IMG/VR virus record: IMGVR_UViG_3300042890_001480
Coordinates: 1 to 58,796 of that record
Reading direction: 5' to 3' (one strand)
DNA: 58,796 nt
Origin: a virus
In this document: positions 8,610 to 35,056 of the stretch, in pieces
Numbering within the stretch: the stretch's first letter is position 1
Layout: every line of letters begins with the position of its first letter
The notes under the pieces: generated by a model
Told to the model about the DNA's origin: nothing
The model's database searches: none
The model's input: the letters and a program-made list of their open reading frames with translations, nothing else
Translations under genes and position numbers: made by a program

Positions 8610-8849
8610 ATGTCTGTAAAAAGATTAGTCCCTCTTAATGCAGTAGAACTATCCACAGACCCAACGGGTGCACGTCGTGGAGACATTTATTATAATACTG
8701 CTGTAGAAGAACTTAGAGTATATGATGGCGTGTCCTGGACTCCAATATCAGGATTAGCAGACCATCTTCATACGTACGACGGTGCAATTTATTCAGTGGG
8801 CAATATAACCTATCCAATGGATCCTGTAATTGATGGCGGCACTCCATAA
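8610..8849 (+). CDS. Small fibre-associated protein
   Basis: The 79-residue product contains ARRGDIYYNTAVEELRVYDGVSWT, a variant of the neck motif found near the start of many phage fibres (compare GQIYYDTSNNTMYYHNG in the previous gene). It has no shaft, so it looks like a detached fibre N-terminus or adaptor. Its stop overlaps the start of the giant fibre gene (TAATG), so it is probably made in step with it and may link it to the tail. Confidence 0.65.
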   Translation: MSVKRLVPLNAVELSTDPTGARRGDIYYNTAVEELRVYDGVSWTPISGLADHLHTYDGAIYSVGNITYPMDPVIDGGTP

Positions 8850-11800
8850 TGGCTACTAATTACCCTAACTCATTAGATAACTTTACAAATCCAACTTCTG
8901 CCAGCCCAATAAATAGTCCATCTCATTCAGAGCAACATGCAAATGCTAATGATGCAATAGAAGCTATTGAAGGTGAATTAGGAACTAATCCAAAGGGTGC
9001 GAAAGCAACAGTTAAAGTTCGTCTTGATGATGTTGATACTGCAATTGCTACTAAAGCACCTATTGATTCCCCAACATTTACTGGCACAGTAACAATTCCA
9101 TCAGGTTCAGCAATTACTGGTGTTCCGTATCTTGCTACCGCCAATACTTTTACTGGAAATAATACTTTTGCTTCACCAATTGTAGGTTTTGTTGGAACTG
9201 GTGGCACATATTCATCTGCAGCCGTATCTGCATATAACATAATACATTTAAGCCAGGGAATGATTCTTATAAATAGTCAAACTGGTGGCGACTATAACTT
9301 GGCTACAAATACTTATTATAATTCAGGATGGAAATATTTTGAAAGTTCCCCATCAACTCTTTTAAATTTTGGTAATGGAAACATTGACTTTAATACTGCT
9401 GCATCTGGAACTGCTGGAAATACAATAACTTTTACAAGTAAAATGAAAATCAACAATTCTGGAAATGTTACTATAAATGGTTTTGGTGCATCTACCGTAG
9501 GTTTAATTGTAAAAGGCGCAACCTCCCAAACTGCAGATTATTTCCAAATTCAAAATTCATCAGGGACAGTTGTAGTTAAGGCTGATTCCTCAAACAGTAT
9601 TGCAGTGCCATTTGGCCAAATTAGTGCAGCATCAGGATTAATCGGCTCAGGCACAACAAGACTTGGAACTGCAGGCGTTACTGCTTATGCAAGTGCAGCC
9701 ACTAGCAATGGAATTATTGTTCGTGGTGCAGCCTCCCAAACTGCCAAACTTCAGGAATGGCAAAACTCAGCTGGAACTGTCGTTGCAAGTACCAGCGTAG
9801 AAGGTAACGGATATTTTCAAGCAAATTTAAATGCCGCATCTATAGGCGCAGGAAATAATATAGGAGGAGCAAGCTTAACCGCATCTCCTTGGAGTGCTGT
9901 AACTACCGTTTCTATAATTAGAGGATATCCATCTCAGTCTGCCGATTTAACTAAATGGCAAAACTCAGATGGGACTGTGTTGTCTGGAATCAGCCCCATC
10001 GGACAATCTTTTGTTCAGACTACTGCACCCATTACGGCAAGTGCTATATCTCAAAGCATTACTGCTGTTTCATTTACATCAACAACTGCAACATATACAT
10101 TTTCGGCTACTGAACAAACTATTTCTATTGGTGAATACGTTACAGTTTATGGAATAACTCCATCAGGATACAATGGCACATATCAGGTTACAGCAGTTGC
10201 CACTGTTTCTGGTGGTACTTCTTATTCATTCACCGTTGCAAATACCACAAATGCTACTGTCACAGTTGGAACAGGGTACTTTTTTCCCTCTGCTTCTGTA
10301 AGTATTTCAACTAAAAATAAAGCACATACTGGTTTAATTATTAAGGCAGTATCAGGACAAACAGCATCTGTGCTGGAACTTCAAAATTCATTAGGTCAGC
10401 CCGCTACTTGGTTTGATTCAACAGGTGGAATGACAGCATCACAAGCCGTAGTATCAACATTGTATTCAGGTGGATTTATGAATACAGGAACGCTTGGATA
10501 TTTTAATGCTACAACATTTAGTTCATCAGTAATACCAGTAGTAGTTCGTGGAACCACCTCACAGGCAACAGATTTAACTCAATGGCAGAACAGTTCTGGT
10601 ACTTCTTTAGCAAGAATTTCTAATACAGGTATTTTTGTAGGCGGCTCCTTTTCATCTAATGGTTCACAAGCAGCAGGAACAAATATTGCGTCTCAATTTG
10701 GTTCAACATCTGCTACACGTATACCTATGGTTGTATATGGTGCAGCATCACAAACTGCCAACCTTCAGGAGTGGCAGGACAGTGCTGGAGCTGTACTTTC
10801 TAGCATTTCAGCATCTGGAGGATTTACAGTTCCTTCTTTGACGGTTTCTGGAGACTTAACTGTAAACGGAACCACTACAAATATTAATTCTACTAATCTT
10901 GTTATAGAAGATAAAAACATTGTGCTTGGAGATACAACAACTCCAACAGATATAACTGCCGATGGCGGAGGTATTACACTTAAAGGCACAACCGATAAAA
11001 CATTCAACTGGGTTGACTCCACAGACTCTTGGACTTCATCAGAACATTTAAATCTTGCTTCAGGAAAGTCACTATATTTAAACGGAACACTGTTAAAAGA
11101 TGCTACAGAAACTTTAACTAATAAGACTCTTACATCCCCAAAAATTAATGAAGATGTAGCAGTTACAGCAACAGCAACAGAGATTAATGTATTAGATGGG
11201 ATTACTTCAACTACCGCAGAACTTAATATTTTAGACGGGGTAACATCAACAGCAGCAGAACTTAATATTTTAGACGGGGTAACATCAACAGCAGCAGAAC
11301 TTAATATTTTAGATGGAGTTACAGCGACAGCTTTAGAGATAAACGTTCTTGATGGAATTACATCATCTACCGCAGAGATTAATATCCTTGACGGAGTTAC
11401 AGCAGACTATACCGAATTAAATATACTTGATGGAGCAACTCTTTCTACAACTGAATTAAATTATGTAGATGGCGTAACATCATCAATTCAAACTCAGATA
11501 GATACCAAGGCTCCACTTGCTTCTCCTACTTTTACTGGTACCGTCACAATTCCAGCAAATTCAGCAATTACTGGTGTTCCTTATCTTGATACCGCTAATA
11601 CTTTTACCAATAGCCCACAAGAGATTGCAAATACAAGCACAAGCGCTATCCAATTAATTTTAAGAACAAATAGTGGACAAACAGCAGATAATTTCCAAAT
11701 AAAAAATATTACCAACACTGTAAACTTTCGCATCTTTGGTGGTTCATTTGGTGCTGACGGAGTCGCTTCAATCGGTAACGCAACATTACCAACAACGTCG

Positions 11801-14800
11801 CAACTTTACGTACAAGACAATAACGCTGCTAGAGTAGGTTTAATTATTCGTGGCGCTACATCTCAAACTGCTAGCCTACAAGAATGGCACAACTCTGCGG
11901 GAAGTGCGTTGGCTTATGTTGATAGCTCTGGTACTATTCGTTCTGCAATTTTTGGCTCGCTTTCAGCAGGTCTTACGACTATGCGAACAAATTATGATAC
12001 TAACGGAATTGGATTTCAAATAGGTAGCGCTGGTCAAAAAGGATTGGTTATCCGTGGCTTCGCCTCACAAACTGAAAATCTTCAGGAGTGGCAGAACAGT
12101 AGTGGTACGTTGCTGTCCTGGATTCACCCTGCTGGATACCTTACACTAGGTTCTGCAACTACTATTGGTGGAGTTCTTGGTATAAGCACGGGTGTCTCAA
12201 CTGCCAGAGGTATTGTTGTCCGAGGTGCTGCCTCACAATCTGTCAATCTTCAAGAGTGGCAAAACAGTGCTGGAGGGGTAATTGCTTCAATTGGTCCTGC
12301 TGGAAGCATAACAACAAATAGTAATATTACTCAAGGCACTTCTGGAAGAACATTTATCGGTGGAGCAGCAGACGCTGGTGCATTTTTAAATGTAGGTAGT
12401 GCAACGACAACAAGGCAAGTAATTGTAGCACGTCCAAATTTTGCGACACAATCCGCTAGTCTCCAAGAATGGCAAAACTCGGCTGGGACCGTTCTTTCAG
12501 GAATTAATGCTGCTGGACAAATTCATACAGGCACTACTACAAGCATTAATGGTTCAATAACAGGGACAATTATATCGACTACTTATGTATCAAGCACAGT
12601 TGCCACCTTTGAATACAATGGCACATCACTTGTGCAAGTAGGACAGAGAGTAACAATTGGAGATCCTTACGGCAATTATAGTGGTAATGGATTTGCTGGA
12701 ACTTGGACAGTCACAGCAGTTACATCAAATACTTTCACAGTACTTGGCTCAGGGTTTTCAGATTATATTGTTGCGCCAGAAGCAGAGGATGGAACATTTA
12801 CTTTATCTGCCGCTGGAAGTTTTGTTGCTAATACTGCTGTAACTACTCCAGTGGTTGTCAAGGGAGTTACATCACAAACCGCTAATCTTCAGGAGTGGCA
12901 GAACAGTGCTGGTGGAGCTTTACTTAATATAGATTCAACAGGCAATTTAGATATAGGTGCTGGCTCTAGCAATATATGGAAAATAAAAAACCAAACCTCA
13001 GCAGTAATGGAATGGCAACCAAGTCAAGGATTTATGTTTTTGCCATATGGATCATCTAATAGACCCGTAACAATTAAAGGCGCAGCAAGTCAAACAGCCA
13101 ACCTAACCGAATGGCAGGATAGCACTGGAGCTGTACTTTCTAGCATTTCAGCATCTGGAGGATTTACAATACCTTCTCTTACAGTATCTGGAGACTTTAC
13201 TGTAAATGGTACAACAACAAATATAAATACAACTAATTTAATTGTAGAAGATAAAAATATTACTATTGCAGATGTTGCTACTCCTACTGATACTACCGCC
13301 GATGGAGCGGGAATTACAATAAAAGGCGCTACAGATAAAACACTTAATTGGGTACAATCAACAGGCTCATTTACATCATCAGAACCGTTTATAATAAATA
13401 CAAATTCAACAACTAAGCAAAATCTTATTGTTAAAGGAATTGCATCCCAAACTGCTAATCTTCAAGAATGGCAAAATAGTGCTGGCAATGTGATAGCCTC
13501 TGTCTATAAAGATGGCATTTCAATTCAAAACAATGAGACAAACTTTCCACGAGGACTTACTATTACGCAGTCCACCAATAATATTGCAGCAGCAGCATTT
13601 ATTGCACGAAAAAGTAGGGGTACAAATGAATCACCTGTTGTTGTTAATACGGGAGATATTGTTGGTGCCTTTGGATTCACTTCGTATAACGGTACTACTT
13701 ACCCTATAGATACCACACTATTTGGTGCAGCGGTAACAGATAAAAGTGGTTCTACTATCTCACAAAGCCTTTACTTTACTACTGGATCAAACAGTAATGG
13801 TAATTATGTTCCTAATTTACTGGTTTATCATGATGGAAGAGTAGGCGTAGGTGCAGGCTTTGGAAATATAACTTCAACAATTAATCAACCATCTGCTACT
13901 TTGCACATTGGTTCGCTAGCCGCTAACACAGTTGTCGCTCTAGTCAAAGGCGCAGCGTCACAATCAGTTAGCCTTCAAGAGTGGCAGAATAATTCTGGTA
14001 CAGCGTTGGCATCAATCGGAGCAACTGGTGCTTTACGTATTTCAGGTTCATTAGGGTATATGGGAGGCGGAGGAAGTCAATTAGTATTTCAAGCAGGAAA
14101 TAATGCTGCCTATTTTACTGTCACATCTTTGGCGGGGGCGTATCCATCCTTAATCATAAGAAGTATTACATCTCAAACTTCTAATCTTCAACAATGGCAA
14201 AACTCGGCTGGAACTATTTTTTCAGGAATAAATGCCGCTGGACAAATATTCGCAGGGACTACCACAAGCATCAATGGTTCAACTACTACGGAAATCACAT
14301 CGGCTGCATTTACATCAGCTACAGTTGCGGTCTTCACCTATGGCGGCACATCACTTGTGCAAGCAGGACAGGCAGTTACAGTTGCAGGTGTAACAGGTGG
14401 TACATACAACGGTACTTGGACAGTTACAGCAGTTACATCAACAACTTTCACGGTCCTTGGTTCAGGATTTACAGATGTAGCAGGTACAGGTGGAACATTT
14501 ACTTTGTCTGCCGTTGGAAGTTTTGTTTCAGGTACGGCAGCAATTACTCCAATAGTTGTTCGTGGCGCAGCATCACAAACTGCCAATCTCCAAGAGTGGC
14601 AGAATTCTGCAGGGACTATATTGCCAAGCATTGGTCCAAATGGAACAATGAATTTAAAGTCTGTAAGTTCAGCCAATCTTGTAACTTTCTTTAATGGTAC
14701 AAGCGGATTCGGCGCAGGAAACATAAGTTATAATGGAATATTTAATATTAATGCTGCAAATATGGGATTTCCATATACAGCATCTGGCGCAACGCTTTCT

Positions 14801-15463
14801 GTAAATGCAACATCAGCAACAGTAGTTCCAATTACTTCTAGAGGCTTTGCCTCACAAACTGGTGACTTACAGCAATGGCAAAATAGTGCTGGCACTGTAT
14901 TAGCTTCTGTTGCTAGTGGTGGCGGTATTTTGGCAAATTCTTTTAGCGCTGTTAATGGTATTGTAACAGGTTCATTATCGTTTTCTAGCATTTCTTATAA
15001 CGGATTTTCCAATCCTGCTGGAATTCTAACTAATCCAACTGTAGTAATACGAGGAATAGCCTCACAAACTGGTGACTTACAGCAATGGCGGGGTAGTGCC
15101 AATACAATACTTGCAAAAGTTGATGTAAATGGTAATTTTTCTGCAATCTCAAAGTCATTTGATATCCCTCACCCAACAAAAGAAAATATGCGTCTTCGTT
15201 ATGCATCTCTTGAAGGAAATGAGCATGGAATATATGTTCGTGGAATTACAAAAGAAAAAATTATTGAATTGCCAGAATATTGGACTAATTTAGTAGATGA
15301 GTCTACTATTACTGTTTCTCTAACTTCTATTGGTAAATTCCAAAAAGTTTATGTAGAAAAAATTGAAGGTAATAAAATTTATATCGGCGGGAGAGTTAAA
15401 GAAATCTCCTATGCAGTATTTGGAGAGCGTAAAGATATAGATAAACTAATAGTGGAGTACTAA
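8849..15463 (+). CDS. Giant repeat-containing tail fibre, 2,204 residues
   Basis: The N-terminus (to about residue 100) is a fibre attachment region containing SPSHSEQHANANDAIEAIE. The shaft carries about nineteen copies, some degenerate, of a roughly 25-residue unit of the form VVRGAASQTANLQEWQNSAG. They are separated by variable beta-rich inserts and small FTV-type beta modules (GYNGTYQVTAV..., NGTWTVTAV...FTVLGSGF). Near residues 770-885 there are eight LDG repeats (type TAELNILDGVTS). The last 90 residues form a different domain, MRLRYASLEGNEHGIYVRG...IELPEYWTNLVD, which resembles C-terminal domains of marine phage fibres. The protein is probably a long trimeric adhesin with spaced binding sites. 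It overlaps both neighbours by one base. Confidence 0.85.
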   Translation: MATNYPNSLDNFTNPTSASPINSPSHSEQHANANDAIEAIEGELGTNPKGAKATVKVRLDDVDTAIATKAPIDSPTFTGTVTIPSGSAITGVPYLATANTFTGNNTFASPIVGFVGTGGTYSSAAVSAYNIIHLSQGMILINSQTGGDYNLATNTYYNSGWKYFESSPSTLLNFGNGNIDFNTAASGTAGNTITFTSKMKINNSGNVTINGFGASTVGLIVKGATSQTADYFQIQNSSGTVVVKADSSNSIAVPFGQISAASGLIGSGTTRLGTAGVTAYASAATSNGIIVRGAASQTAKLQEWQNSAGTVVASTSVEGNGYFQANLNAASIGAGNNIGGASLTASPWSAVTTVSIIRGYPSQSADLTKWQNSDGTVLSGISPIGQSFVQTTAPITASAISQSITAVSFTSTTATYTFSATEQTISIGEYVTVYGITPSGYNGTYQVTAVATVSGGTSYSFTVANTTNATVTVGTGYFFPSASVSISTKNKAHTGLIIKAVSGQTASVLELQNSLGQPATWFDSTGGMTASQAVVSTLYSGGFMNTGTLGYFNATTFSSSVIPVVVRGTTSQATDLTQWQNSSGTSLARISNTGIFVGGSFSSNGSQAAGTNIASQFGSTSATRIPMVVYGAASQTANLQEWQDSAGAVLSSISASGGFTVPSLTVSGDLTVNGTTTNINSTNLVIEDKNIVLGDTTTPTDITADGGGITLKGTTDKTFNWVDSTDSWTSSEHLNLASGKSLYLNGTLLKDATETLTNKTLTSPKINEDVAVTATATEINVLDGITSTTAELNILDGVTSTAAELNILDGVTSTAAELNILDGVTATALEINVLDGITSSTAEINILDGVTADYTELNILDGATLSTTELNYVDGVTSSIQTQIDTKAPLASPTFTGTVTIPANSAITGVPYLDTANTFTNSPQEIANTSTSAIQLILRTNSGQTADNFQIKNITNTVNFRIFGGSFGADGVASIGNATLPTTSQLYVQDNNAARVGLIIRGATSQTASLQEWHNSAGSALAYVDSSGTIRSAIFGSLSAGLTTMRTNYDTNGIGFQIGSAGQKGLVIRGFASQTENLQEWQNSSGTLLSWIHPAGYLTLGSATTIGGVLGISTGVSTARGIVVRGAASQSVNLQEWQNSAGGVIASIGPAGSITTNSNITQGTSGRTFIGGAADAGAFLNVGSATTTRQVIVARPNFATQSASLQEWQNSAGTVLSGINAAGQIHTGTTTSINGSITGTIISTTYVSSTVATFEYNGTSLVQVGQRVTIGDPYGNYSGNGFAGTWTVTAVTSNTFTVLGSGFSDYIVAPEAEDGTFTLSAAGSFVANTAVTTPVVVKGVTSQTANLQEWQNSAGGALLNIDSTGNLDIGAGSSNIWKIKNQTSAVMEWQPSQGFMFLPYGSSNRPVTIKGAASQTANLTEWQDSTGAVLSSISASGGFTIPSLTVSGDFTVNGTTTNINTTNLIVEDKNITIADVATPTDTTADGAGITIKGATDKTLNWVQSTGSFTSSEPFIINTNSTTKQNLIVKGIASQTANLQEWQNSAGNVIASVYKDGISIQNNETNFPRGLTITQSTNNIAAAAFIARKSRGTNESPVVVNTGDIVGAFGFTSYNGTTYPIDTTLFGAAVTDKSGSTISQSLYFTTGSNSNGNYVPNLLVYHDGRVGVGAGFGNITSTINQPSATLHIGSLAANTVVALVKGAASQSVSLQEWQNNSGTALASIGATGALRISGSLGYMGGGGSQLVFQAGNNAAYFTVTSLAGAYPSLIIRSITSQTSNLQQWQNSAGTIFSGINAAGQIFAGTTTSINGSTTTEITSAAFTSATVAVFTYGGTSLVQAGQAVTVAGVTGGTYNGTWTVTAVTSTTFTVLGSGFTDVAGTGGTFTLSAVGSFVSGTAAITPIVVRGAASQTANLQEWQNSAGTILPSIGPNGTMNLKSVSSANLVTFFNGTSGFGAGNISYNGIFNINAANMGFPYTASGATLSVNATSATVVPITSRGFASQTGDLQQWQNSAGTVLASVASGGGILANSFSAVNGIVTGSLSFSSISYNGFSNPAGILTNPTVVIRGIASQTGDLQQWRGSANTILAKVDVNGNFSAISKSFDIPHPTKENMRLRYASLEGNEHGIYVRGITKEKIIELPEYWTNLVDESTITVSLTSIGKFQKVYVEKIEGNKIYIGGRVKEISYAVFGERKDIDKLIVEY
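10745..11045 (+). repeat. Internal segmental repeat of the giant fibre, copy 1
   Basis: This segment encodes GAVLSSISASGGFTVPSLTV...DKTFNWVDSTDSWTSSE. It is closely matched by the segment at about 13075-13385 (GAVLSSISASGGFTIPSLTV...DKTLNWVQSTGSFTSSE). The DNA is identical over the first stretch (agctgtactttctagcattt and onward). It marks an internal duplication or gene conversion. Confidence 0.7.
11170..11495 (+). repeat. Eight LDG repeats with a perfect 39-bp tandem unit
   Basis: Eight successive 13-residue units of the type TSTAAELNILDGV are encoded here. Two neighbouring units are identical in DNA over 39 bases (11221-11259 and 11260-11298) and a third begins at 11299. This suggests recent expansion by slippage or recombination. 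Confidence 0.8.
13075..13385 (+). repeat. Internal segmental repeat of the giant fibre, copy 2
   Basis: This is the second copy of the segment described at 10745-11045, with the same order of motifs (GGFTIPSLTVSGDFTVNGT, TNLIVEDKNI, GITIKGATDKTLNWV). The differences are scattered, so this is an older duplication with a locally identical start. Confidence 0.7.
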
Positions 15464-24553: not shown

Positions 24554-26326
24554 TTGCCTCTAAATACAGTAAATTTAATAAGCCCCGTAGTTACCAGCTT
24601 ATCTTCCGTTAGACCAGAAAATATACAAAGATGGGTTTATAACGGATCAGATGTAGCAGCAATAACACCAACTGGAATGTTAGATTTAAGATCTTCCACA
24701 ACTGGAACGCTTCCATCTAATTCCACTCTTGGAAGTTTAGGAACAAAAATAGTTTTCTATTCAGCAGATGCTATAAATCCAACTTGGGGTTTTGGATTAC
24801 AAAGCGGAAGACTTGTGGCTTTGATTGATTCATCAAACCCTGGAAACTCATTTTCAATACGATCATCAATTGGCGGATCGGATATAATTAGATTCCAGAA
24901 TGACGGAAACATAGGCGCAAGATTTTTAGACTCTATTAATAATAATGGGGCATATATTGATATGGGACCTGGCGGATCTGGGATTCTCGTTGCCAATCGT
25001 ACTCCTTCACATATTACTATTTCAGTTAGAGGCGCAGCCTCACAAACTGCCAATCTAGAAGAGTGGCAAAATAGCGCTGGAGCTATTCTTGCAAGGGTTT
25101 CATCAGCAGGTGGAATATTTTCTACTGCTAACAGCGTATTATCTGGCGGATTATCAGTTTCAGGTAATTATGGCGGAAGTAATACAATGGAGATTCCAAA
25201 TAGCCAAAATATTATTGGGCTTACAATAAGAGGATTTTCAACTCAAACAGCTAATTTACAAGAATGGCGAAATAGCGCTTCGGTATTATTAGCTTCAATA
25301 AATCCTTCTGGATTTTTAAGTACTCCTAGAATTAATTTTACAGGCGGAACCTCAACAGTATCAGCATTAGCATTATCTGATGGCACACTATCATTTGAAA
25401 GCACAGCAGGACAATTATTTTCAATATCTAACTCCCTTACTGGAACAATATTCTCAGTTAATGATATATCAGGATTGCCAATTGTAGAGGCAACAGATTT
25501 AGGTATAGTTAAAATTAATGAGCTTTTTGGACAAACAGTAGTTGGATCGGGCACACCAACTTCAAACACAATGTTAACATCAATTGCAAGAACAGCAACA
25601 AGTGTTCCAATTGTTGCAAAAGGTGCAGCCTCCCAAACTGCAAACCTGCAAGAATGGCACAGTTCTGATGGAACTGCAAGAGCAACCTTAAGATCTAGTG
25701 GCGCACTAAATCTTGGAACCTTAATAACAGGAACACAATTATCAGTAATCCCATTCAGCAACACTACTATTGGAATAGTTGTGAGAGGCGCTGCCTCCCA
25801 AACTGCAAATCTTATGGAATGGCAGAATAGTTCTGGTACTGTATTGGCTAAAATTAATGCAGACGGAGGAGCCAATTTTTCAGGTACAAATGTTGATATA
25901 CGTGATGGCAGTGGAAACTTTACAATTAGAAACGCTGGTACTACTGCCTACTTTACAAACTCATCATTATTAGTTGGAACAGGATACTCAGCGGGAATTG
26001 GTGTAATTATTCGTGGTAATGGTTCACAAACCGCCGACCTTCAACAATGGCAAGATAGTGCTGGTACGGTGTTGGCAAAGGTTGATACATATGGTTATTT
26101 AACATCATATGGTGCGGTGTTGCATAGCGGTAATGGAAGTTTTGAATCTGCTTACGGCGGAGCATTTATGGGAATGAAAAAAACATCATCTGCTGTTGCA
26201 AATCCTGGGGCAGACATTGCCCGCATATACCTTGTTGCTGGAACCACCGCAGGAACTCTCAAACTGGTAGTGCGTGCAGGAGCGTCAGGCGCAGAAACTA
26301 CTATTTTGGACAATATACCACAGTAG
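24554..26326 (+). CDS. Repeat-containing tail fibre, 590 residues
   Basis: Translation starts at TTG behind GGAGGAG. The N-terminus (RPENIQRWVYNGSDVAAITP) is a fibre neck. The shaft holds five copies of the unit VVRGAASQTANLQEWQNSAG, the same as in the giant fibre, plus SAGQLFSISNSLTGTIFSVN, shared with the 251-residue protein at 20758. The C-terminus (GGAFMGMKKTSSAVANPGADIARIYLVAG...KLVVRAGASGAETTILDNIP) is a different tip domain. It is probably a shorter paralogue of the 2,204-residue fibre, with another receptor tip. Confidence 0.8.
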   Translation: MPLNTVNLISPVVTSLSSVRPENIQRWVYNGSDVAAITPTGMLDLRSSTTGTLPSNSTLGSLGTKIVFYSADAINPTWGFGLQSGRLVALIDSSNPGNSFSIRSSIGGSDIIRFQNDGNIGARFLDSINNNGAYIDMGPGGSGILVANRTPSHITISVRGAASQTANLEEWQNSAGAILARVSSAGGIFSTANSVLSGGLSVSGNYGGSNTMEIPNSQNIIGLTIRGFSTQTANLQEWRNSASVLLASINPSGFLSTPRINFTGGTSTVSALALSDGTLSFESTAGQLFSISNSLTGTIFSVNDISGLPIVEATDLGIVKINELFGQTVVGSGTPTSNTMLTSIARTATSVPIVAKGAASQTANLQEWHSSDGTARATLRSSGALNLGTLITGTQLSVIPFSNTTIGIVVRGAASQTANLMEWQNSSGTVLAKINADGGANFSGTNVDIRDGSGNFTIRNAGTTAYFTNSSLLVGTGYSAGIGVIIRGNGSQTADLQQWQDSAGTVLAKVDTYGYLTSYGAVLHSGNGSFESAYGGAFMGMKKTSSAVANPGADIARIYLVAGTTAGTLKLVVRAGASGAETTILDNIPQ

Positions 26327-26415: not shown

Positions 26416-26655
26416 ATGTCAATTGACTATTCAGGTCTATTAACCGATGAGCAAAAACGTTCAATCTTGTCACAAAGATTGACGCAGTTTGCCGCAGAAG
26501 CATATCAGCACGAGATCAATAAAAAGATCGCTGATGATTCAGATAATGAAGAGGGCGTTAAGGCAGCAAATGATGCTCTTGCAATTCTTGATTCAGCAAT
26601 TACAGTTCACCAAGCTGAAATAGCTAAGCTTCCTGCACAAGCAGAAGCAGAATAA
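26416..26655 (+). CDS. Small helical protein of the fibre region
   Basis: The 79-residue protein is predicted by eye to be helical and highly charged (LTDEQKRSILSQRLTQFAAEAYQHEINKKIADDSD...). It has no signal or membrane segment. It has its own leader with a hairpin and palindrome and an AAGGAG site, and is followed by a perfect hairpin. It resembles in size and style the 102-residue helical gene at 29873; both sit beside beta-rich fibre genes. A fibre-assembly chaperone is conceivable, but the family is not recognised. Confidence 0.65.
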   Translation: MSIDYSGLLTDEQKRSILSQRLTQFAAEAYQHEINKKIADDSDNEEGVKAANDALAILDSAITVHQAEIAKLPAQAEAE

Positions 26656-26732: not shown

Positions 26733-28400
26733 ATGTCCAGTAAAATTCTACTAAGAAGAGGTACGGCGGCTGAATGGTCTTCAGCTAACCCAATCTTGGG
26801 AACTGGCGAACTTGGAATAGAAACAGATACACTTAAAATAAAAATTGGTAATGGATCTAGCACATGGTCACAATTATCTAGTTACGCAAACGTAACACCA
26901 GCACAATTAACTTCTCAAATAAATAGCCTTATAAGCGCAGCCCCTTCAACCCTTGATACATTAAATGAGTTAGCGGCGGCAATAAATAATGATGCTTCTT
27001 TTTCAACTACAGTAAATAATCTTTTAACAGGTAAAGTATCTAAATCAGGTGGAGATACAATTACATCTAGTACGGCATCCACGGTTGGCTTAATTATCAA
27101 AGGCGCAACCTCTCAAACTGCCAACCTTCAAGAGTGGCAGGACTCTGCTGGAACTGCGCTTCTACGAGTAAATAGTGCTGGACAAATACAAGCACCATTA
27201 GATACATCAGTTGGTTTAGTAGTAAGGGCAGCAACTGGAAACGCAACTGCAACAATTACTAGCGCATCTGGTTCTGGAACAACAGTTACTTACACCGCTA
27301 CAAATACTTTTACTGCTGGTCAGGCTGTAACAATTACTGGTGTAAACCCATCGGCTTACAATTTATCTTTTGTTACAATTGCAACTGCTAATGCAACAAC
27401 TTTTACAGTTACTAATGCCGCAACTGGAACTTATGTTTCAGGTGGAACTGCAACTATTCAACAATCTGGAAACTTGCAACAATGGCAGACTGCTGCGGGA
27501 ACCATTCATACACGTATAACTGGACTTGGTACATTACAGACTAATAACAACGGCTCATTTGATATGGCAGTTTTTGCTGGTAGTGCTGGAGCTACTCAAA
27601 TTCTTGCTGGTGGATCAATTCGCCAAAACTCAAATTTAAATAACAGTTTTGGTGGTGGAACTGCCACTGGCGTAATTATCAATCTTGGAACATTTGCTAC
27701 AACAAATGTTGGTCTTAGAATAAATGGTGTTGCCTCTCAAACCGCCAACCTTACAGAATGGCAGAATAGTGCTGGTACGGTGCTTGCAAAAGTTGATTCT
27801 ACTGGTGTCATGTCGGTTGCAGATTTAATAGTTAATAATCAAACTACATCTGCTACTTTAGCAGTAAAAGGTTCTTCAACTTCAGGAAAGTTTGTAGGAT
27901 TATTTGCTGAAAATGGAATTACTCCTCAAAACTCTACAATCGGGCCTACCATTGCAAACAGAATGGTAAGCGTTCAAGGCAACGGCGCTGCATTTTTTAT
28001 GGGCCGAGATGTTACAAATAGTATTGAATTTATCATGGGTACATCTAGTGTAGGTGCTGTTTTTGCTGGTGCTATGACAGCGCACGACTTGCATTTAAGA
28101 ACACAAAATACAACTAGGGCTTGGGTAAAAAGCGCTGGAAAATTTGCAATAGGGGCTGACATTTCAACAGGTCAATTAAATGTAACGCCTGCAAGTTCGG
28201 CAACAATTGGTTTAGTTGTCCAAGGCATAGCATCTCAAACTGGCAACCTTCAAGAGTGGCAGAATAACAGCGGAACCGTATTAGCTAAAATTACTGCATC
28301 TGGAGCATTAGATGCAACAGCAATTACTGTAAATGGCGCAGCAATATCAACAGGATCAGCAAGTGGTTTATCAGATGCATTCATGTTAATGGGCGCATAA
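26733..28400 (+). CDS. Tail fibre with MTD-like N-terminus and phage tail repeat
   Basis: The 555-residue protein opens with ILLRRGTAAEWSSANPILGTGELGIETDT...KIGNGSSTWSQL, the conserved N-terminal fibre domain seen in hyaluronidase- and MTD-type fibres. Next comes the phage tail repeat SAAPSTLDTLNELAAAINND. Four EWQ-type repeats follow. The second is split: VVRAATGN is separated from SGNLQQWQTAAG by a beta module of about 70 residues (VTYTATNTFTAGQAVTITGV...VTNAATGTYVSGG). The C-terminal part (about 370-470) is globular with MVSVQGNGAAFFMGRD. It lacks a strong Shine-Dalgarno. It is probably a complete trimeric fibre with its own attachment domain. Confidence 0.8.
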   Translation: MSSKILLRRGTAAEWSSANPILGTGELGIETDTLKIKIGNGSSTWSQLSSYANVTPAQLTSQINSLISAAPSTLDTLNELAAAINNDASFSTTVNNLLTGKVSKSGGDTITSSTASTVGLIIKGATSQTANLQEWQDSAGTALLRVNSAGQIQAPLDTSVGLVVRAATGNATATITSASGSGTTVTYTATNTFTAGQAVTITGVNPSAYNLSFVTIATANATTFTVTNAATGTYVSGGTATIQQSGNLQQWQTAAGTIHTRITGLGTLQTNNNGSFDMAVFAGSAGATQILAGGSIRQNSNLNNSFGGGTATGVIINLGTFATTNVGLRINGVASQTANLTEWQNSAGTVLAKVDSTGVMSVADLIVNNQTTSATLAVKGSSTSGKFVGLFAENGITPQNSTIGPTIANRMVSVQGNGAAFFMGRDVTNSIEFIMGTSSVGAVFAGAMTAHDLHLRTQNTTRAWVKSAGKFAIGADISTGQLNVTPASSATIGLVVQGIASQTGNLQEWQNNSGTVLAKITASGALDATAITVNGAAISTGSASGLSDAFMLMGA

Positions 28401-28769: not shown

Positions 28770-29858
28770 ATGGCAATATCCAGCGTAAAGATTTCATCTA
28801 TAGTTAATGGTTTCCCTAAAGATAGATCTTTGCTTGCTGGAAATTTAACATCAGCAACACCATCTGGGTACGTAGCTGTAGCTTTAAGTAAAAGCCCATA
28901 TGTATATGTTTATAGATGGTACAATGCATTTGGCAGAAGATATTCTGATCCCGCTTCCCTTCCTTCTGGTAGCTCTGGCAGAGCAGTAAGATGGTCAAGA
29001 TCTGGAAATGATCTAGCCGTTACTAATTCTAATATAGTTACAATTTATTCTTGGAATAATTTAAATGGATTTGGAGCAAAGCATACTTCGTTTTCTGTAC
29101 CATCACTTGTTGATGTAGAGTTCAATCCTGGAGATACTGTATTAGCTGTTTCAGGAACTGTTACTCCTTATATATATGCCTACCCATTTACTTCTGGTGT
29201 AGGGGTAGGAACAAAATATGCTGATCCGTCAACTTTATCTAATATTGGACTAGGAATACACTGGTCTCCATCAGGTAATGCAATTGCAATAGGTCATAAT
29301 TTTCAATCCCCATTTATTTCCGTCTATTCATGGTCAAACGGTTTTGGGACAAAATATGCCAATCCAGCAACACTGCCAGTTAACAGTGTCTTTGACGCCG
29401 CCTGGTCCCCATCAGGAAATGATATTGCAGTTCCTTATACTGGTTCACCATTTATTTCCGTCTATCCATGGTCAAACGGTTTTGGGACAAAGTATGCCAA
29501 TCCAGCCATATTGCCGAGTGGAAGTGCTCATGCTGCAGCCTGGTCACCATCGGGAAATCAAATAGTAGTGACCCATAACGTTTCCCCGTTTATTTCAGCA
29601 TACGATTTTACATCTGGTACAGGTTTTGGAACTAAGTATGCAGATCCAATAACTTTAATTACAGGTGGAGCAATAGGTTTTGTAGGCGCTACTGTAAAGT
29701 GGCACTCTTCAGGAAATGCAATATTATTTGGTTGCGGCAATCCATCACGTATTGGCGCATACGCTTGGTCTGACGGATTCCAAAGAAAATATGATGATCC
29801 GATAGATGCAATTATAAACAATACACAAGGTGTTTCATCTAGTGTAGATCTAAAATAA
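28770..29858 (+). CDS. Beta-propeller-like (WD40-type) repeat adhesin 1
   Basis: The 362-residue protein contains about six to seven repeats of roughly 45 residues built on AWSPSGNDIAV...SPFISVYPWSNGFGTKYANP. WSPSGN followed by a strand and a closing Y/W is the pattern of WD40-like propeller blades, and six or seven blades would close a propeller. Propellers bind proteins or sugars. The first and last blades are degenerate (RWSRSGNDLAVTNSN; KWHSSGNAILFGCGN). It is a close paralogue of the gene at 30215. There is no signal peptide, as expected for a virion part. Confidence 0.8.
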   Translation: MAISSVKISSIVNGFPKDRSLLAGNLTSATPSGYVAVALSKSPYVYVYRWYNAFGRRYSDPASLPSGSSGRAVRWSRSGNDLAVTNSNIVTIYSWNNLNGFGAKHTSFSVPSLVDVEFNPGDTVLAVSGTVTPYIYAYPFTSGVGVGTKYADPSTLSNIGLGIHWSPSGNAIAIGHNFQSPFISVYSWSNGFGTKYANPATLPVNSVFDAAWSPSGNDIAVPYTGSPFISVYPWSNGFGTKYANPAILPSGSAHAAAWSPSGNQIVVTHNVSPFISAYDFTSGTGFGTKYADPITLITGGAIGFVGATVKWHSSGNAILFGCGNPSRIGAYAWSDGFQRKYDDPIDAIINNTQGVSSSVDLK

Positions 29859-29872
29859 AAAAGGAGAAAAAA

Positions 29873-30181
29873 ATGGAAAATAATCAAATGCAAGAAAATC
29901 AATTAACACCAATACAAGCTCGTCAAGCAGAAGTTAATGCTTACGCTGCAAATATTGTTAACTATGAAAGTATCTTGTCATCAATTAATGGTGACTGGGA
30001 TGCCGACCTACTTCAATTTAAAGGTCTAGATATGCAAGAAGCAGCTCGTCAATGCTCAATGGATCGTCTAGAGCGTCTTGGAGAGCTACAGTTACACGAT
30101 CAAGTAACAAATTTGCTAAAAACAGAAATTGTTGAACGCTTTAAAGCACAAACAATTTTAAATTCTTTATTAAATTCTTAA
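29873..30181 (+). CDS. Small helical protein between the two propeller genes
   Basis: The 102-residue protein is rich in glutamine and leucine and likely all-helical (QLTPIQARQAEVNAYAANIV...RLERLGELQLHDQVTNLL). It has an AAAAGGAG site and sits between two paralogous propeller-like adhesins. It resembles in type the 79-residue gene at 26416. A dedicated chaperone or connector for the neighbouring adhesins would fit. I do not recognise a family. Confidence 0.65.
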   Translation: MENNQMQENQLTPIQARQAEVNAYAANIVNYESILSSINGDWDADLLQFKGLDMQEAARQCSMDRLERLGELQLHDQVTNLLKTEIVERFKAQTILNSLLNS

Positions 30182-30214
30182 CATTTAATATAAATAAAAA
30201 AAGGAAAAAATAAA

Positions 30215-31279
30215 ATGGCAGTAATTAAAATTGGTAATTCTGGAATTAAAAAAATGAATAAAGGTATCTCTTTATTGGTAGGCAATATAGCATATACTCC
30301 TAATTTTATTGCCGTAGGTGTTGGTTCTAACAATGTTTTTATTTTTCCTTTTTATGAAGGTTCCTACATAGAAAAAGTTTTTCCTAATACAACCTCAAAT
30401 ATGTCGTTTGGCTATGATGTTTCCTGGTCGCCATCAGGAAATAATTTTATTCAAGGAGGACTTTCAACACCGTATGTATCTGTGTGGCCATGGAATGATA
30501 GTGCAGGTTTTGGAACAAAATATGCTAATCCAGCAACACTGCCACCTAGCACTACATACTCTGCAAGATTTTCTCCGTCAGGAAATGATGTTGCAATGGG
30601 ACATAGCAGTAGCCCTGAAATTTCAGCATATAGTTGGTCAAACGGTTTTGGGACAAAATATGCTAATCCAGCATCATTACCTACCTATATTACAGTAAAT
30701 TCTGTAAGATTTTCTCCATCAGGAAATGATATTGCACTTGCAAATTATTATATTCCAAACCTATCCGCATACCGATTTACATCTGGTACTGGATTTGGAA
30801 CAAAGTATGCAGATCCTGTTGGATTACCAAGTGGTATAGCAAATGGCGTGGCTTGGTCTCCGTCAGGAAATATTGTTGCTCATGCAACGGATTCTTCTCC
30901 GTACATATCTGCATATCCATTTACATCAGGTACTGGTTTTGGAACAAAATATGCTAATCCAGCAGCACTCCCAACGGGTCTTGGTAAAAGTGTGGCCTGG
31001 TCTCCATCAGGAAATAATATTGCAGTTGCACACACCACATCCCCATTTATTTCTGTCTATCCGTGGTCAAATGGCTTTGGAACAAAATATGCTAATCCAG
31101 CAACGCTTCCAACGGGCGACGGTAAAAGCGTGGCCTGGTCTCCATCAGGAAATACAATTGCAGTAGCACATTTAACATCACCATATTTATCAGTTTATAA
31201 ATGGTCAAATGGTTTTGGCACAAAATACGTAACTCCTGAATTTTCAACAAACAATGTTTTCAGCGTGGCATTCAGGTAA
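30215..31279 (+). CDS. Beta-propeller-like (WD40-type) repeat adhesin 2
   Basis: This 354-residue paralogue of the gene at 28770 has seven clearer repeats with the core WSPSGNNIAVAHTTSPFIS and VYPWSNGFGTKYANPATLP. Repeat units near 30870-31170 are also very similar to each other at DNA level, which suggests ongoing homogenisation. Position-specific changes concentrate at the end of each blade (TLPPSTTYS, SLPTYITVN, ALPTGLGKS), where a propeller would expose loops. It ends in a palindrome (GGTAAGCTTACC) that overlaps the stop codon. Probably an alternative receptor-binding tip. Confidence 0.8.
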   Translation: MAVIKIGNSGIKKMNKGISLLVGNIAYTPNFIAVGVGSNNVFIFPFYEGSYIEKVFPNTTSNMSFGYDVSWSPSGNNFIQGGLSTPYVSVWPWNDSAGFGTKYANPATLPPSTTYSARFSPSGNDVAMGHSSSPEISAYSWSNGFGTKYANPASLPTYITVNSVRFSPSGNDIALANYYIPNLSAYRFTSGTGFGTKYADPVGLPSGIANGVAWSPSGNIVAHATDSSPYISAYPFTSGTGFGTKYANPAALPTGLGKSVAWSPSGNNIAVAHTTSPFISVYPWSNGFGTKYANPATLPTGDGKSVAWSPSGNTIAVAHLTSPYLSVYKWSNGFGTKYVTPEFSTNNVFSVAFR

Positions 31280-31315: not shown

Positions 31316-33076
31316 ATGTCATATAAGCTAAAAGTTATAAAAGATGGCCCAGTAGGGTTTTGGATGTTGGATGAAACATCTGGAACTACCGCTACGGATA
31401 TATCTGGATGTGGCAACAATGGAATATATACTGGTGGATTGACTACAGGACTTATGCCACTAGTTCCTGGCGGAGTTAATGGAACTAATATAACATCTTC
31501 AAAAAGTATTTCTTTCCCTATAACAAAAGATTACTCAGGATCAATTTCTGGTGGAAATATTGCGGACAAATACTCCTTGGACAATGACTTTTCAATAGAG
31601 CTATGGCTATACCCTAAAATAACTACAACCAATCAAACTAGAATATTTGCAGATCCTACAAGCGAGGCAGGATTATACTATATCAAAGGAAGTATTTTAT
31701 TTAAAATAGGCACAGAAACAATATACTATACTCTTCCTAATTTAAAAAAAGCATATCACATAGTAGCGGTATATTCTGTAAATGCGCTAATATTATATTG
31801 TGACGGGGTAATTGTAGGATATAAAAATATAACATCTACAATAACACTATCTAATACATCTACTACATTTCAATCAGGACCTACCGCAAATGCAAATGAC
31901 TCTTTTACAATAGACGCCATTGCTTTATATAGATATTCTTTAAAACAAGAAACTGTATATTCTCACTTTACCTATGGACAACCTATAAATCCAATTCAAT
32001 TAGCTACCCCAGAAAATGGAATTTTATTTTCTTTAAATGATGAAAACGTAAGACGCATATTTGAATACTCATATCCATATAGCAAATCTTTAGAAAACTT
32101 TACAAATGACGATGTAGTATTTAATCAGGAAGATCAATCAATATCAATTATTCCTTCAACTACCGTAACTGCAAAATCTGCAGAGTTTTCTGACTATATA
32201 GTATTTCCTACTAATATTGGAATTACCAATTCTAAAATAGAATGGAGCGGAGAAAACGGAATAACCGTAGAAACCAGTATAGATGGATCAACCTATACAG
32301 CCTGCGTAAATGGACAAAATATTCCTCAGTACGCACAAGAATCTTTTGCGACGGGTGGAAAAATTTATATTAAATTTACTTTAAGTACAGAAGATGCTAG
32401 TAAATATATCCCAAAACTATTATATCTTAATATATCACTTTTTAGATCTATAAATTTAAGAGCAGATAACTCAGGATATGCCCTAACCCCAGTAGATGAG
32501 GAGTACTATTTGGGTCGTAAGAATTATAATATTTTATCAAGAGATTATAGAAATGGACTAAGATGTCAGGCAGATGGCGGATTTAATATTAATACCGATA
32601 TGCTGGTAAAGACTATAGAGTTCTTTTATACCCCCACCGCATATACCGATAGCGGCCTTATATCCTCATTAGCGGACACAACTTATTTTGCCTCTAACTA
32701 TTCATGGAGAAACTCTGGAACGGTCTCTAAAACCAATATAGCAGCGATTTACGTTAATGGGGTGAATAAAACCTCTGAGACGGCGGTGGCAAATGTATTT
32801 ACCTTAAATGAATTACACCACGTACTTATTGTCTATACTGAGCCTATTTCTAATGATATTAAATTTAATTCATCATTATATGGATCAGAAGAGTCTTTAT
32901 ATAAGAATATTATAATCTATCCCACAGCTTTTGATTCTACAAAGGCTTTAAAACACTATAACTTATATATTCAGAATGCAGCAGAGGTAATTTATGCCAA
33001 TACTTCTGACGTCACCTTGACAGAATCCGCTTTGGATGTATATAATAATGACTGGATATTGGTTCAAAGCAGTTAA
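31316..33076 (+). CDS. Large LamG-containing structural protein
   Basis: The 586-residue protein starts with a LamG domain (GPVGFWMLDETSGTTATDIS, FSIELWLYPKITT, NALILYCDGVIVGYKN, ALYRYSLKQETVYSHF; to about residue 225). A beta region follows (230-370; FSLNDENVRRIFEYSYPYSKSL). The second half is another LamG-like domain (about 395-560; RNGLRCQADGGFNI, TIEFFYTPTAYTDSG, LYKNIIIYPTAF). Two sugar-binding domains in one chain suggest a fibre or spike. It is transcribed from its own promoter, apparently as a leaderless mRNA. It is the last adhesin before the head genes. Confidence 0.75.
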   Translation: MSYKLKVIKDGPVGFWMLDETSGTTATDISGCGNNGIYTGGLTTGLMPLVPGGVNGTNITSSKSISFPITKDYSGSISGGNIADKYSLDNDFSIELWLYPKITTTNQTRIFADPTSEAGLYYIKGSILFKIGTETIYYTLPNLKKAYHIVAVYSVNALILYCDGVIVGYKNITSTITLSNTSTTFQSGPTANANDSFTIDAIALYRYSLKQETVYSHFTYGQPINPIQLATPENGILFSLNDENVRRIFEYSYPYSKSLENFTNDDVVFNQEDQSISIIPSTTVTAKSAEFSDYIVFPTNIGITNSKIEWSGENGITVETSIDGSTYTACVNGQNIPQYAQESFATGGKIYIKFTLSTEDASKYIPKLLYLNISLFRSINLRADNSGYALTPVDEEYYLGRKNYNILSRDYRNGLRCQADGGFNINTDMLVKTIEFFYTPTAYTDSGLISSLADTTYFASNYSWRNSGTVSKTNIAAIYVNGVNKTSETAVANVFTLNELHHVLIVYTEPISNDIKFNSSLYGSEESLYKNIIIYPTAFDSTKALKHYNLYIQNAAEVIYANTSDVTLTESALDVYNNDWILVQSS

Positions 33077-33475: not shown

Positions 33476-35056
33476 ATGGAATTTATAAACGACGAAGAGT
33501 CATCAGATCAAATTTTTATATCAAACGATTCCGATTGGATTAAATTTAATAAAAAGCCAGTTGTAGAAAATGATCCATTTAAAATTGAAGGCGCAGAATT
33601 AAAAAAAGTTAATGGACTAGGTTCATCATTTAGACGTAAAGTCTCAAGAGATTTACAAAAAAGATTTGTAGGTCAAGACGACACAGGAACACAGCAAAAT
33701 TTATTAGCACAAGCAGTAACTGGCTATGCGATGTTCGATCTTATTGAGCCTCCATATAATTTAGAATATCTTTCTAGGATTTATGAAATATCTCCATACA
33801 ACTATGCAGCAATTAATGCAAAGGTTGCAAACATTGTCGGATTAGGATTTTCTTTTGTAGAAACTCGTAAAGCAAACGAAGCACTTGATAGCATTTCAGA
33901 TGGAAGACAGTTAGAGAGAGCACGTCGTAAATTAAATAAACTTCGTCAGGACCTAGATTCTTGGCTAGAAGAAGTAAATGAAGAAGAAACATTTACAGAA
34001 ACATTAATTAAAGCTTATGTGGATTTAGAAGCAACAGGAAACGGCTACATCGAAATAGGCAGAACAACTGCTGGCAACATTGGATATATTGGTCATATTC
34101 CTGCAAAGACAATGCGGGTACGCAGACTTCGTGACGGCTTTATTCAATTGCTTTATGGCAAGGCAGTATACTTTAGAAACTTTGGAGATCAAGAAACTGA
34201 GAATCCAATTGCAGATGGATCAGATCGTCCAAATGAAATTATTCACCTAAAGAAATATACCCCTATGAATAACTATTACGGAATACCAGACATTATTGCA
34301 GCACAAAATGCAATGGCAGGTAACGAGTTTGCTGGAAAGTATAACTTAGATTACTTTGAAAACAAAGCAGTCCCAAGATATATCATTACAGTTAAGGGTG
34401 CTAAATTAGCTCCAGAGTCAGAACGGAAGTTATTAGAATTTTTCCAAGTAGGACTTAAGGGTAAAAATCACAGATCTCTATACGTACCACTTCCAGCTGA
34501 TAGCGCAGACTCAAAGGTTGAATTTAAAATGGAACCAATCGAGGCAAACTCTCAAGAGTCTTCATTTAATGTATATCGTAAATCAAATAGAGATGAAATA
34601 CTTTTGGCTCATAGAGTTCCAATTAGCAAAATCGGATTACCTGAAGGAGTCAATTTGGCTTCAGCTAGAGACTCAGATAAAATGTTTAAAGAGCAGGTAT
34701 GCCGTCCAGCACAGGATATTTTAGAAAAGAAATTAAATAAAATAGTTGAAGAAAAAACAGATGTGCTATTAATTAAATTTAATGAATTAACCCTGACCGA
34801 TGAAGATACTCAGTCTAAAATAGACGAGAGATATTTAAGAATGCAGGTAATTACCCCTAATGAAGTTAGAATTAGAAAGGGCATGGTCCCAATCGATGGC
34901 GGAGATTCAATTGTTCAATTAAAGCCACAACAGGCTGCTGAGCAAACTGCACAGGCTATGAATTCTCGTCAAAGAACTCAAGATCGGGATGCTAATTCTC
35001 CAGATATTTCTGGGGAGGCTAGAAATCCAAAAGGCGAGGGTAGAGTAACCTCTTAA
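33476..35056 (+). CDS. Portal protein
   Basis: The 526-residue protein matches phage portal proteins of the PBSX/HK97-like group. It has LEYLSRIYEISPYNYAAINAK (about 95-115), an amphipathic block, YVDLEATGNGYIEIGR (about 182-197), IIHLKKYTPMNNYYGIPDI (about 255-273) and AHRVPISKIGLPEG (about 380-393). In this family twelve copies form the ring through which DNA enters the capsid, and which carries the connector. It directly follows the hypothetical gene and precedes the protease. The C-terminal 50 residues are glutamine-rich and probably disordered. Confidence 0.92.
   Translation: MEFINDEESSDQIFISNDSDWIKFNKKPVVENDPFKIEGAELKKVNGLGSSFRRKVSRDLQKRFVGQDDTGTQQNLLAQAVTGYAMFDLIEPPYNLEYLSRIYEISPYNYAAINAKVANIVGLGFSFVETRKANEALDSISDGRQLERARRKLNKLRQDLDSWLEEVNEEETFTETLIKAYVDLEATGNGYIEIGRTTAGNIGYIGHIPAKTMRVRRLRDGFIQLLYGKAVYFRNFGDQETENPIADGSDRPNEIIHLKKYTPMNNYYGIPDIIAAQNAMAGNEFAGKYNLDYFENKAVPRYIITVKGAKLAPESERKLLEFFQVGLKGKNHRSLYVPLPADSADSKVEFKMEPIEANSQESSFNVYRKSNRDEILLAHRVPISKIGLPEGVNLASARDSDKMFKEQVCRPAQDILEKKLNKIVEEKTDVLLIKFNELTLTDEDTQSKIDERYLRMQVITPNEVRIRKGMVPIDGGDSIVQLKPQQAAEQTAQAMNSRQRTQDRDANSPDISGEARNPKGEGRVTS

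Follow-up and report, generated by a model that had tools for sequence, protein, structure and literature searches.

What are the two paralogous, propeller-like proteins that flank a small helical gene beside the tail fibre genes of this virus, and what role do they play for it? The window analysed is the whole 58,796-base virus record IMGVR_UViG_3300042890_001480. Our main reading, with a probability of about 0.7, is that both proteins, P362 and P354, fold into closed WD40-type propellers of seven blades and form the heads with which tail fibres or spikes recognise the host. The placement of the propellers in the virion, their receptor binding, and the role of the small protein P102 as their partner are what we infer.

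The gene cassette

The three open reading frames are found where the first-pass annotation had placed them, with P362 and P354 flanking P102; these, together with P113 and the Mtd_N fibre, lectin-domain, and portal genes described below, are on the plus strand. P362 (362 aa, 28770..29858) has a short N-terminal segment followed by seven WD40-like blades, and its ring region begins near residue 34 and takes up the rest of the chain (28869..29855, limited by the first and last matches of the blade HMM). P102 (102 aa, 29873..30181) is a member of an unnamed family of helical proteins. P354 (354 aa, 30215..31279) has its ring at residues 30-354 (30302..31276). Directly upstream of P362, and in the same cassette, is the small protein P113 (28425..28766), with weak matches to phrog_693 (a tail fibre family) and phrog_1276.

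The cassette is preceded by fibre genes, the upstream neighbour being a tail fibre with an Mtd_N domain (26733..28400; PF18454, 51.4 bits at a cut-off of 26.3, along with tail fibre PHROGs). The downstream neighbour is a protein with a concanavalin/laminin-G-like lectin domain (31316..33076; PF13385, 41.4 bits, cut-off 27.6). The head genes begin after it with the portal protein (33476..35056; phrog_12, E 1.1e-59), followed by protease and capsid genes. The major capsid protein is matched by 214 phage records, and among the matches listed its closest named relatives are Streptomyces phages (57-61%). Three window proteins (8849-15463, 24554-26326, and 26733-28400) have in common a SQTANLQEWQ-type repeat, present in many copies. 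A 79-residue gene (26416-26655) is located behind a 590-residue fibre gene in the same arrangement as P102 behind P362; its product has no PHROG match and is possibly another fibre partner.

Repeats, fold and ring closure

The repeat described for the two proteins exists, with a length of 46-48 residues rather than about 45, as given by the 138-144 nt period of the DNA repeat families D1-D7 in the propeller genes. P362 and P354 align with E 9.3e-44 over one stretch and with 3.3e-35 and 6.2e-16 over further ones, which bears out their paralogy and common repeat, and both the WSPSGN core and the SPFIS-YPWSNGFGTKYANP core occur exactly as claimed. The proposed number of about seven copies each was checked by a profile search. 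The blade HMM finds seven blades in P362 (scored on the identical L001 copy) and six in P354, where the first blade is degenerate by HMM, yet is a blade in the AlphaFold model. Against curated models, P354 is above the cut-off for ANAPC4_WD40 (26.5 bits, cut-off 22.9) and eIF2A (21.9, cut-off 20.5), and under it for WD40 PF00400 (20.7 bits, cut-off 27). The Pfam matches of P362 to WD40 propellers are weak (the best is 8.5e-07), every one below cut-off.

An alignment of 34 members of the family was the input for the AlphaFold model of P354, which shows four-stranded units along the chain (pLDDT 86.6, pTM 0.86), with pLDDT below 50 for residues 1-27. The top PDB match in Foldseek is a designed seven-bladed propeller, and PDB 2ymu and the WRAP designs are also among the top structure matches. 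Superposition in VIA-align on 7bid, a solved seven-bladed design, gives Z 38.7, with 283 residues of the range 30-354 aligned at an rmsd of 1.7. In the DSSP assignment of the model, residues 30-36, where the chain joins the ring, form strand b of blade 1, and the chain finishes with residues 348-353 as a strand a that would close the ring. A VAF-like terminal strand that would have the same effect is present in 131 of 149 proteins. WD40 propellers usually close the ring elsewhere than between strand a and strands b-c-d.

Blade numbers were counted in 153 distinct 5'-complete related ORFs: 128 ORFs contain seven blades, 15 contain 14, and a single one contains 21, so that 144 of the 153 contain a multiple of seven. 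The nine that deviate include three P354 orthologues, which show six matches plus the degenerate first blade; the others are L309 (nine blades), L190 (eight), L227 (six), L107 (five), the distant L082 (five), and L102, with six blades in an ORF at the contig end. In all 15 two-ring proteins, the spacing between blades 7 and 8 is 50-54 residues, while the remaining spacings are 46-48, with three exceptions (40, 41, and 50); the single three-ring protein has a spacing of 52 at both junctions. Such counts and junction spacings are not expected of a solenoid, and indicate closed seven-blade rings. The model of P354 likewise displays neither an extended solenoid nor an unclosed ring, and it supports the original proposal that this protein is a closed WD40-type seven-bladed propeller. 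P362, with its seven blade matches and its alignment with P354, would also be a seven-bladed propeller.

Variable and conserved faces

Column variability was computed over 1,098 blades from 140 clusters, and substitution rates were taken from 29 independent pairs of relatives. The most variable blade columns in the first set are 15, 46, 44, 16, and 8. In the second, the rates are 76% for column 15, 75% for 44, 70% for 46, 63% for 16, and 51% for 19, all of them within or bordering the b-c and d-a loops, while every column of the a-b and c-d loops is substituted in at most 33%. The loop after TKYANPA-LP, where variation had been said to concentrate, is the d-a loop and is variable indeed, but not alone: the b-c loop after the AVAH strand, located on the same face, is equally variable, and its first position is the top variable column overall.

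The faces were assigned from strand order. A four-strand meander puts the b-c and d-a loops on one face, and consequently the a-b and c-d loops on the opposite one. As the chain begins with strand b and finishes with strand a, both of its ends are on the conserved face. This a-b/c-d face would point toward the virion, and the b-c/d-a face, to which each blade contributes some five to eight variable residues, would be the likely receptor-binding surface. Structural Gly, Phe, Tyr, Trp, and Pro residues, recurring in each blade, occupy the most conserved positions.

The conserved positions also bear on the alternative that the propeller is a virion enzyme, a depolymerase or a lactonase-like protein. 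6-Phosphogluconolactonases do occur among the structure matches (Z about 33), and the endosialidases of coliphages K1F and phi92 carry trimeric propellers on a stem (excerpts of PMC4901313). However, WD40 designs and non-enzymes score equally high, no unique conserved catalytic residue stood out among the structural positions, and a hypervariable face suits binding better, which makes an enzyme quite improbable.

Relation to tail fibres

Of 150 complete ORFs for which downstream sequence is available, 38 have at least 90 residues ahead of the propeller; this share is biased because many of the 38 were retrieved with a query itself fused. A scan of nine of these N-terminal fusion stalks gave matches to PHROG tail families for seven and none for two. 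In L061, one of the seven, an Mtd_N domain (45.4 bits, cut-off 26.3) is joined to the propeller. Unlike these relatives, P362 and P354 are separate proteins adjoining fibre genes. In the Pararhodobacter sp. CCB-MM2 contig L106, a tail fibre gene lies before the propeller and an endolysin gene after it; the region resembles a prophage and also encodes a P102 homologue. The 'structural protein' of Agrobacterium phage 7-7-1 was considered as evidence for virion location and rejected, since the text of the paper makes no mention of a propeller.

The propellers could alternatively decorate the capsid or collar, sticking the virion to surfaces or mucus, instead of forming a receptor-binding tip. Most standalone members have merely short N-terminal segments, the window propeller genes are near the portal and protease genes, and in phage ZRG1 a distant relative is located between head genes and baseplate genes. 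Against this, fused relatives bear tail fibre stalks (seven of nine scanned) and, in one case, Mtd_N, and tail fibre genes adjoin the propellers both in the window and in Pararhodobacter; we regard decoration as unlikely. Host-recognising heads of fibres or spikes are the preferred reading, which draws on the computed fold, blade number, face-biased variation, gene linkage, and fibre-stalk fusions in relatives. The receptor-binding role suggested in the first-pass annotation is probable, with indirect support from the stalk fusions, the gene neighbourhood, and the hypervariable face.

The helical partner P102

The AlphaFold model of P102 (pLDDT 93.8) has two long and two short helices (residues 13-37, 44-49, 54-60, and 63-100). 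The invariant positions in its family are Arg, Glu, Tyr, Asn, Tyr, Glu, and Lys. Scanning 32 members of the family against PHROGs, Pfam, and NCBIfam gave no credible match, and a P102 fold search found nothing among solved structures at E 0.001 or better; neither points to a known chaperone family. Queries with single P102 sequences retrieved near relatives only.

The family co-occurs with propellers in 71 of 84 sequences. Among standalone propellers with enough downstream DNA, 96 of 112 have a P102-family gene within 300 nt. Five of the other 16 come from cellular contigs (L099, L101, L104 twice, and L107). For nine more the examined stretch contains a member at another place, and for L162 and L175 it contains none. 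A scan with a P102 DNA pattern, independent of propellers, gave 117 cases among the matches listed: 84 directly behind a propeller, 26 duplicates, four near an end, one without an ORF, and two members without an HMM propeller. Thus, 84 of the 86 judged among these matches are directly behind a propeller. Of the two exceptions, L385 shows blades by eye, and L394 stands behind a conventional-looking fibre tip, which suggests that P102 is a general fibre-tip partner.

A small gene is also found behind 34 of 38 stalk-fused propellers, recognised by HMM in 11 (10 of them weak) and by eye in 23 of the other 27. Comparison of this gene with the P102 family in hhalign gives E 0.00037 at a probability of just 36.5%. 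Mutual exclusion of P102 and fused stalks was considered and rejected, because the fused propellers carry this divergent small gene in the same place. In L035 (9947-10522) the P102-like partner continues into sequence that, we presume, resembles a phage tail assembly chaperone; the read-through is possibly a fusion or a frame artefact.

The middle gene had been proposed to be a chaperone or a stalk. The linkage in 96/112 and, among the matches listed, 84/86 cases upholds a conserved helical partner, and does not distinguish the two roles. P102 would be the dedicated partner of the propeller encoded just before it, with assembly chaperone or attachment protein as its most likely roles. It may be a permanent part of the virion, an adaptor attaching the propeller, rather than a transient chaperone: the gene order is the same nearly everywhere, and the predicted long helical hairpin could serve as a stalk. 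The small gene behind stalk-fused propellers, however, means that it is not a simple stalk replacement, and T4, Mu, and R-pyocins likewise have the genes of their fibre chaperones directly downstream (excerpts of PMC7289586). A permanent adaptor seems somewhat less likely than not.

Diversification of the blades

Over 14 pairs, pN/pS is 0.83 at eight variable columns, 0.19 in the rest, and 0.30 in the bottom loops; the eight columns were selected for variability, and the contrast with the rest is partly built in. Five pairs analysed in detail show values of 2.97, 2.13, 1.21, 0.49, and 0.46 at the variable columns (1.21 does not differ from the rest, p 0.25), and of 0.96, 0.83, 1.20, 0.65, and 0.33 in loops defined purely by structure. 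Diversifying selection throughout finds no support, as the ratio exceeds 1 in just three of the five detailed pairs and is 0.83 over the 14. In L264/L267, the variable codons have 53.5 N and 5.5 S changes versus 13 N and 43 S elsewhere (Fisher 7.7e-14). Two tandem propeller genes within one contig, L260 (2798-5047), also differ mainly at the variable codons, with 61.5 N and 9.5 S versus 24 N and 44 S (4.6e-10). When P354 of the window is compared with L002, amino-acid changes are not in excess on the variable face (pN/pS 0.49, p 0.33).

The DNA likeness of blades within a gene has a median of 0.749, versus a mean of 0.639 for random blades of other genes, and reaches at least 0.85 in 20 of 140 clusters. 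The blades of both genes are closer within the gene than blade-by-blade between the genes in 11 of 24 independent pairs. Codon bias alone is insufficient to account for this likeness, since 132 of 138 genes are above all 60 codon shuffles. The propeller genes of the window are under the median (0.702 and 0.593), and the blades of P354 are less alike within the gene (0.705) than blades of the same index between genes (0.915), i.e. without homogenisation. Blades appear homogenised within the gene, while the variable codons differ, in some relatives and not in the window. In L024 (7938-9026) the seven blades have almost identical codons except at the variable positions.

The variable codons are few and sharply placed, as might be expected if a diversity-generating retroelement mutated the propellers, and tail proteins are commonly targets of such elements (excerpts of PMC10743442). 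RVT_1, however, was not found in the window or in any of 19 further records (0 of 20, which are possibly fragments), and the mutation spectrum is mixed, with A involved in 38 of 59 and 41 of 71 variable-codon changes in the two clearest pairs and not in nearly all. A retroelement is extremely improbable and was dropped.

Spread and probable exchange of the cassette

The DNA identity between the window and L003 is 91.5% for P113, 73.1% for P102, 72.7% for P354, 64.7% for P362, 64.6% for the major capsid protein, and 62.1% for the portal. With L002 it is 93.3% for P113, 89.1% for P354, 75.4% for P102, 75.0% for the portal, and 65.1% for P362. P113 (28425-28766) keeps 91-93% DNA identity to its counterparts in L002 and L003 (92-93% in another comparison) despite widely differing neighbours. 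Part of the cassette, though not P362, is more similar between these records than the head genes are, a pattern that would be expected if host-recognition modules are exchanged (compare excerpts of PMC10579305).

The family is common in IMG/VR, with at least 599 stretches in each of three scans. WD40-like propellers as phage receptor-binding proteins had been called unusual, which agrees with the few named in print (excerpts of PMC4901313), but not with these numbers. Related propellers are also found in L099, L101, L104, and L107, contigs assigned to Dojkabacteria, Tepidiforma, Nitrosotalea, and Fimbriimonadales, respectively. None of the four has a P102 gene, and the fold is hence not tied to phage tails everywhere.

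Comparison with known systems

Propeller receptor-binding proteins have already been published for phi11, PRD1 (P2), and PhiKZ (gp131) (excerpts of PMC4901313). Gp45 of Staphylococcus phage phi11 is similar in having a beta-propeller domain on a stem in a host-recognition protein, but with five blades, in a trimeric mid-protein platform followed by a C-terminal tower (PMC4901313). Here, in contrast, seven WD40-like blades are C-terminal or form a separate protein, and proteins with two or three consecutive rings also occur. PhiKZ gp131C (PDB 4GBF) is seven-bladed and located at the baseplate periphery, and its receptor binding was proposed and is unconfirmed in the same source. PDB 4GBF is absent among the structure matches listed for P354, which is compatible with a relationship.

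The WD40 superfamily and highly repetitive propellers have the same blade motif, seven blades, and inter-blade amplification (excerpts of PMC9218822 and PMC6805158). The proteins described here differ in their presumed location on phage fibres, and in the place of ring closure, which lies between strand a and strands b-c-d. In the Alteromonas phages V22 and A5, a fibre gene and a small cognate gene form a module common to distant phages (excerpts of PMC7289586 and PMC10579305); P102 differs in being all-helical and having no match in the libraries scanned. The 'wD40 repeat protein' UOF80687 in the GenBank phage record MW202701 also belongs to this family, with two rings and a P102 homologue encoded behind it. 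It has 50.4% identity to P354 in the part that matches, and is annotated by name only; GenBank members of the family are labelled either so or as hypothetical. The open-licence literature searched yielded no account of the family, of its blade numbers fixed at multiples of seven, or of the variable face and the partner gene. Phage propeller receptor-binding proteins being known, this is a further family, not found described in that literature.

In its broadest form, our proposal is that the family comprises widespread phage tail tips with a fixed seven-bladed scaffold and their own helical partner, in which a hypervariable binding face is renewed by blade recombination and selection on a few codons, with no retroelement, making the family a viral equivalent of the WD40 incompatibility receptors of fungi. 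We hold this tentatively, at somewhat less than even odds. If true, hundreds of uncultured phages use one simple repeat scaffold for host recognition, the variable codons are legible from sequence so that host recognition could be tracked in metagenomes, and P102 represents a new, testable family of fibre partner proteins. It would also provide a phage case of the repeat homogenisation combined with hypervariable sites described for the fungal receptors (excerpts of PMC12222747). In HET-D and HET-E, and apparently in some relatives of the window propellers, concerted evolution maintains near-identical repeats and a few hypervariable sites occupy the interaction surface; those proteins, however, are fungal incompatibility receptors with a variable number of repeats, whereas the phage proteins have fixed multiples of seven (PMC12222747 for the fungal proteins).
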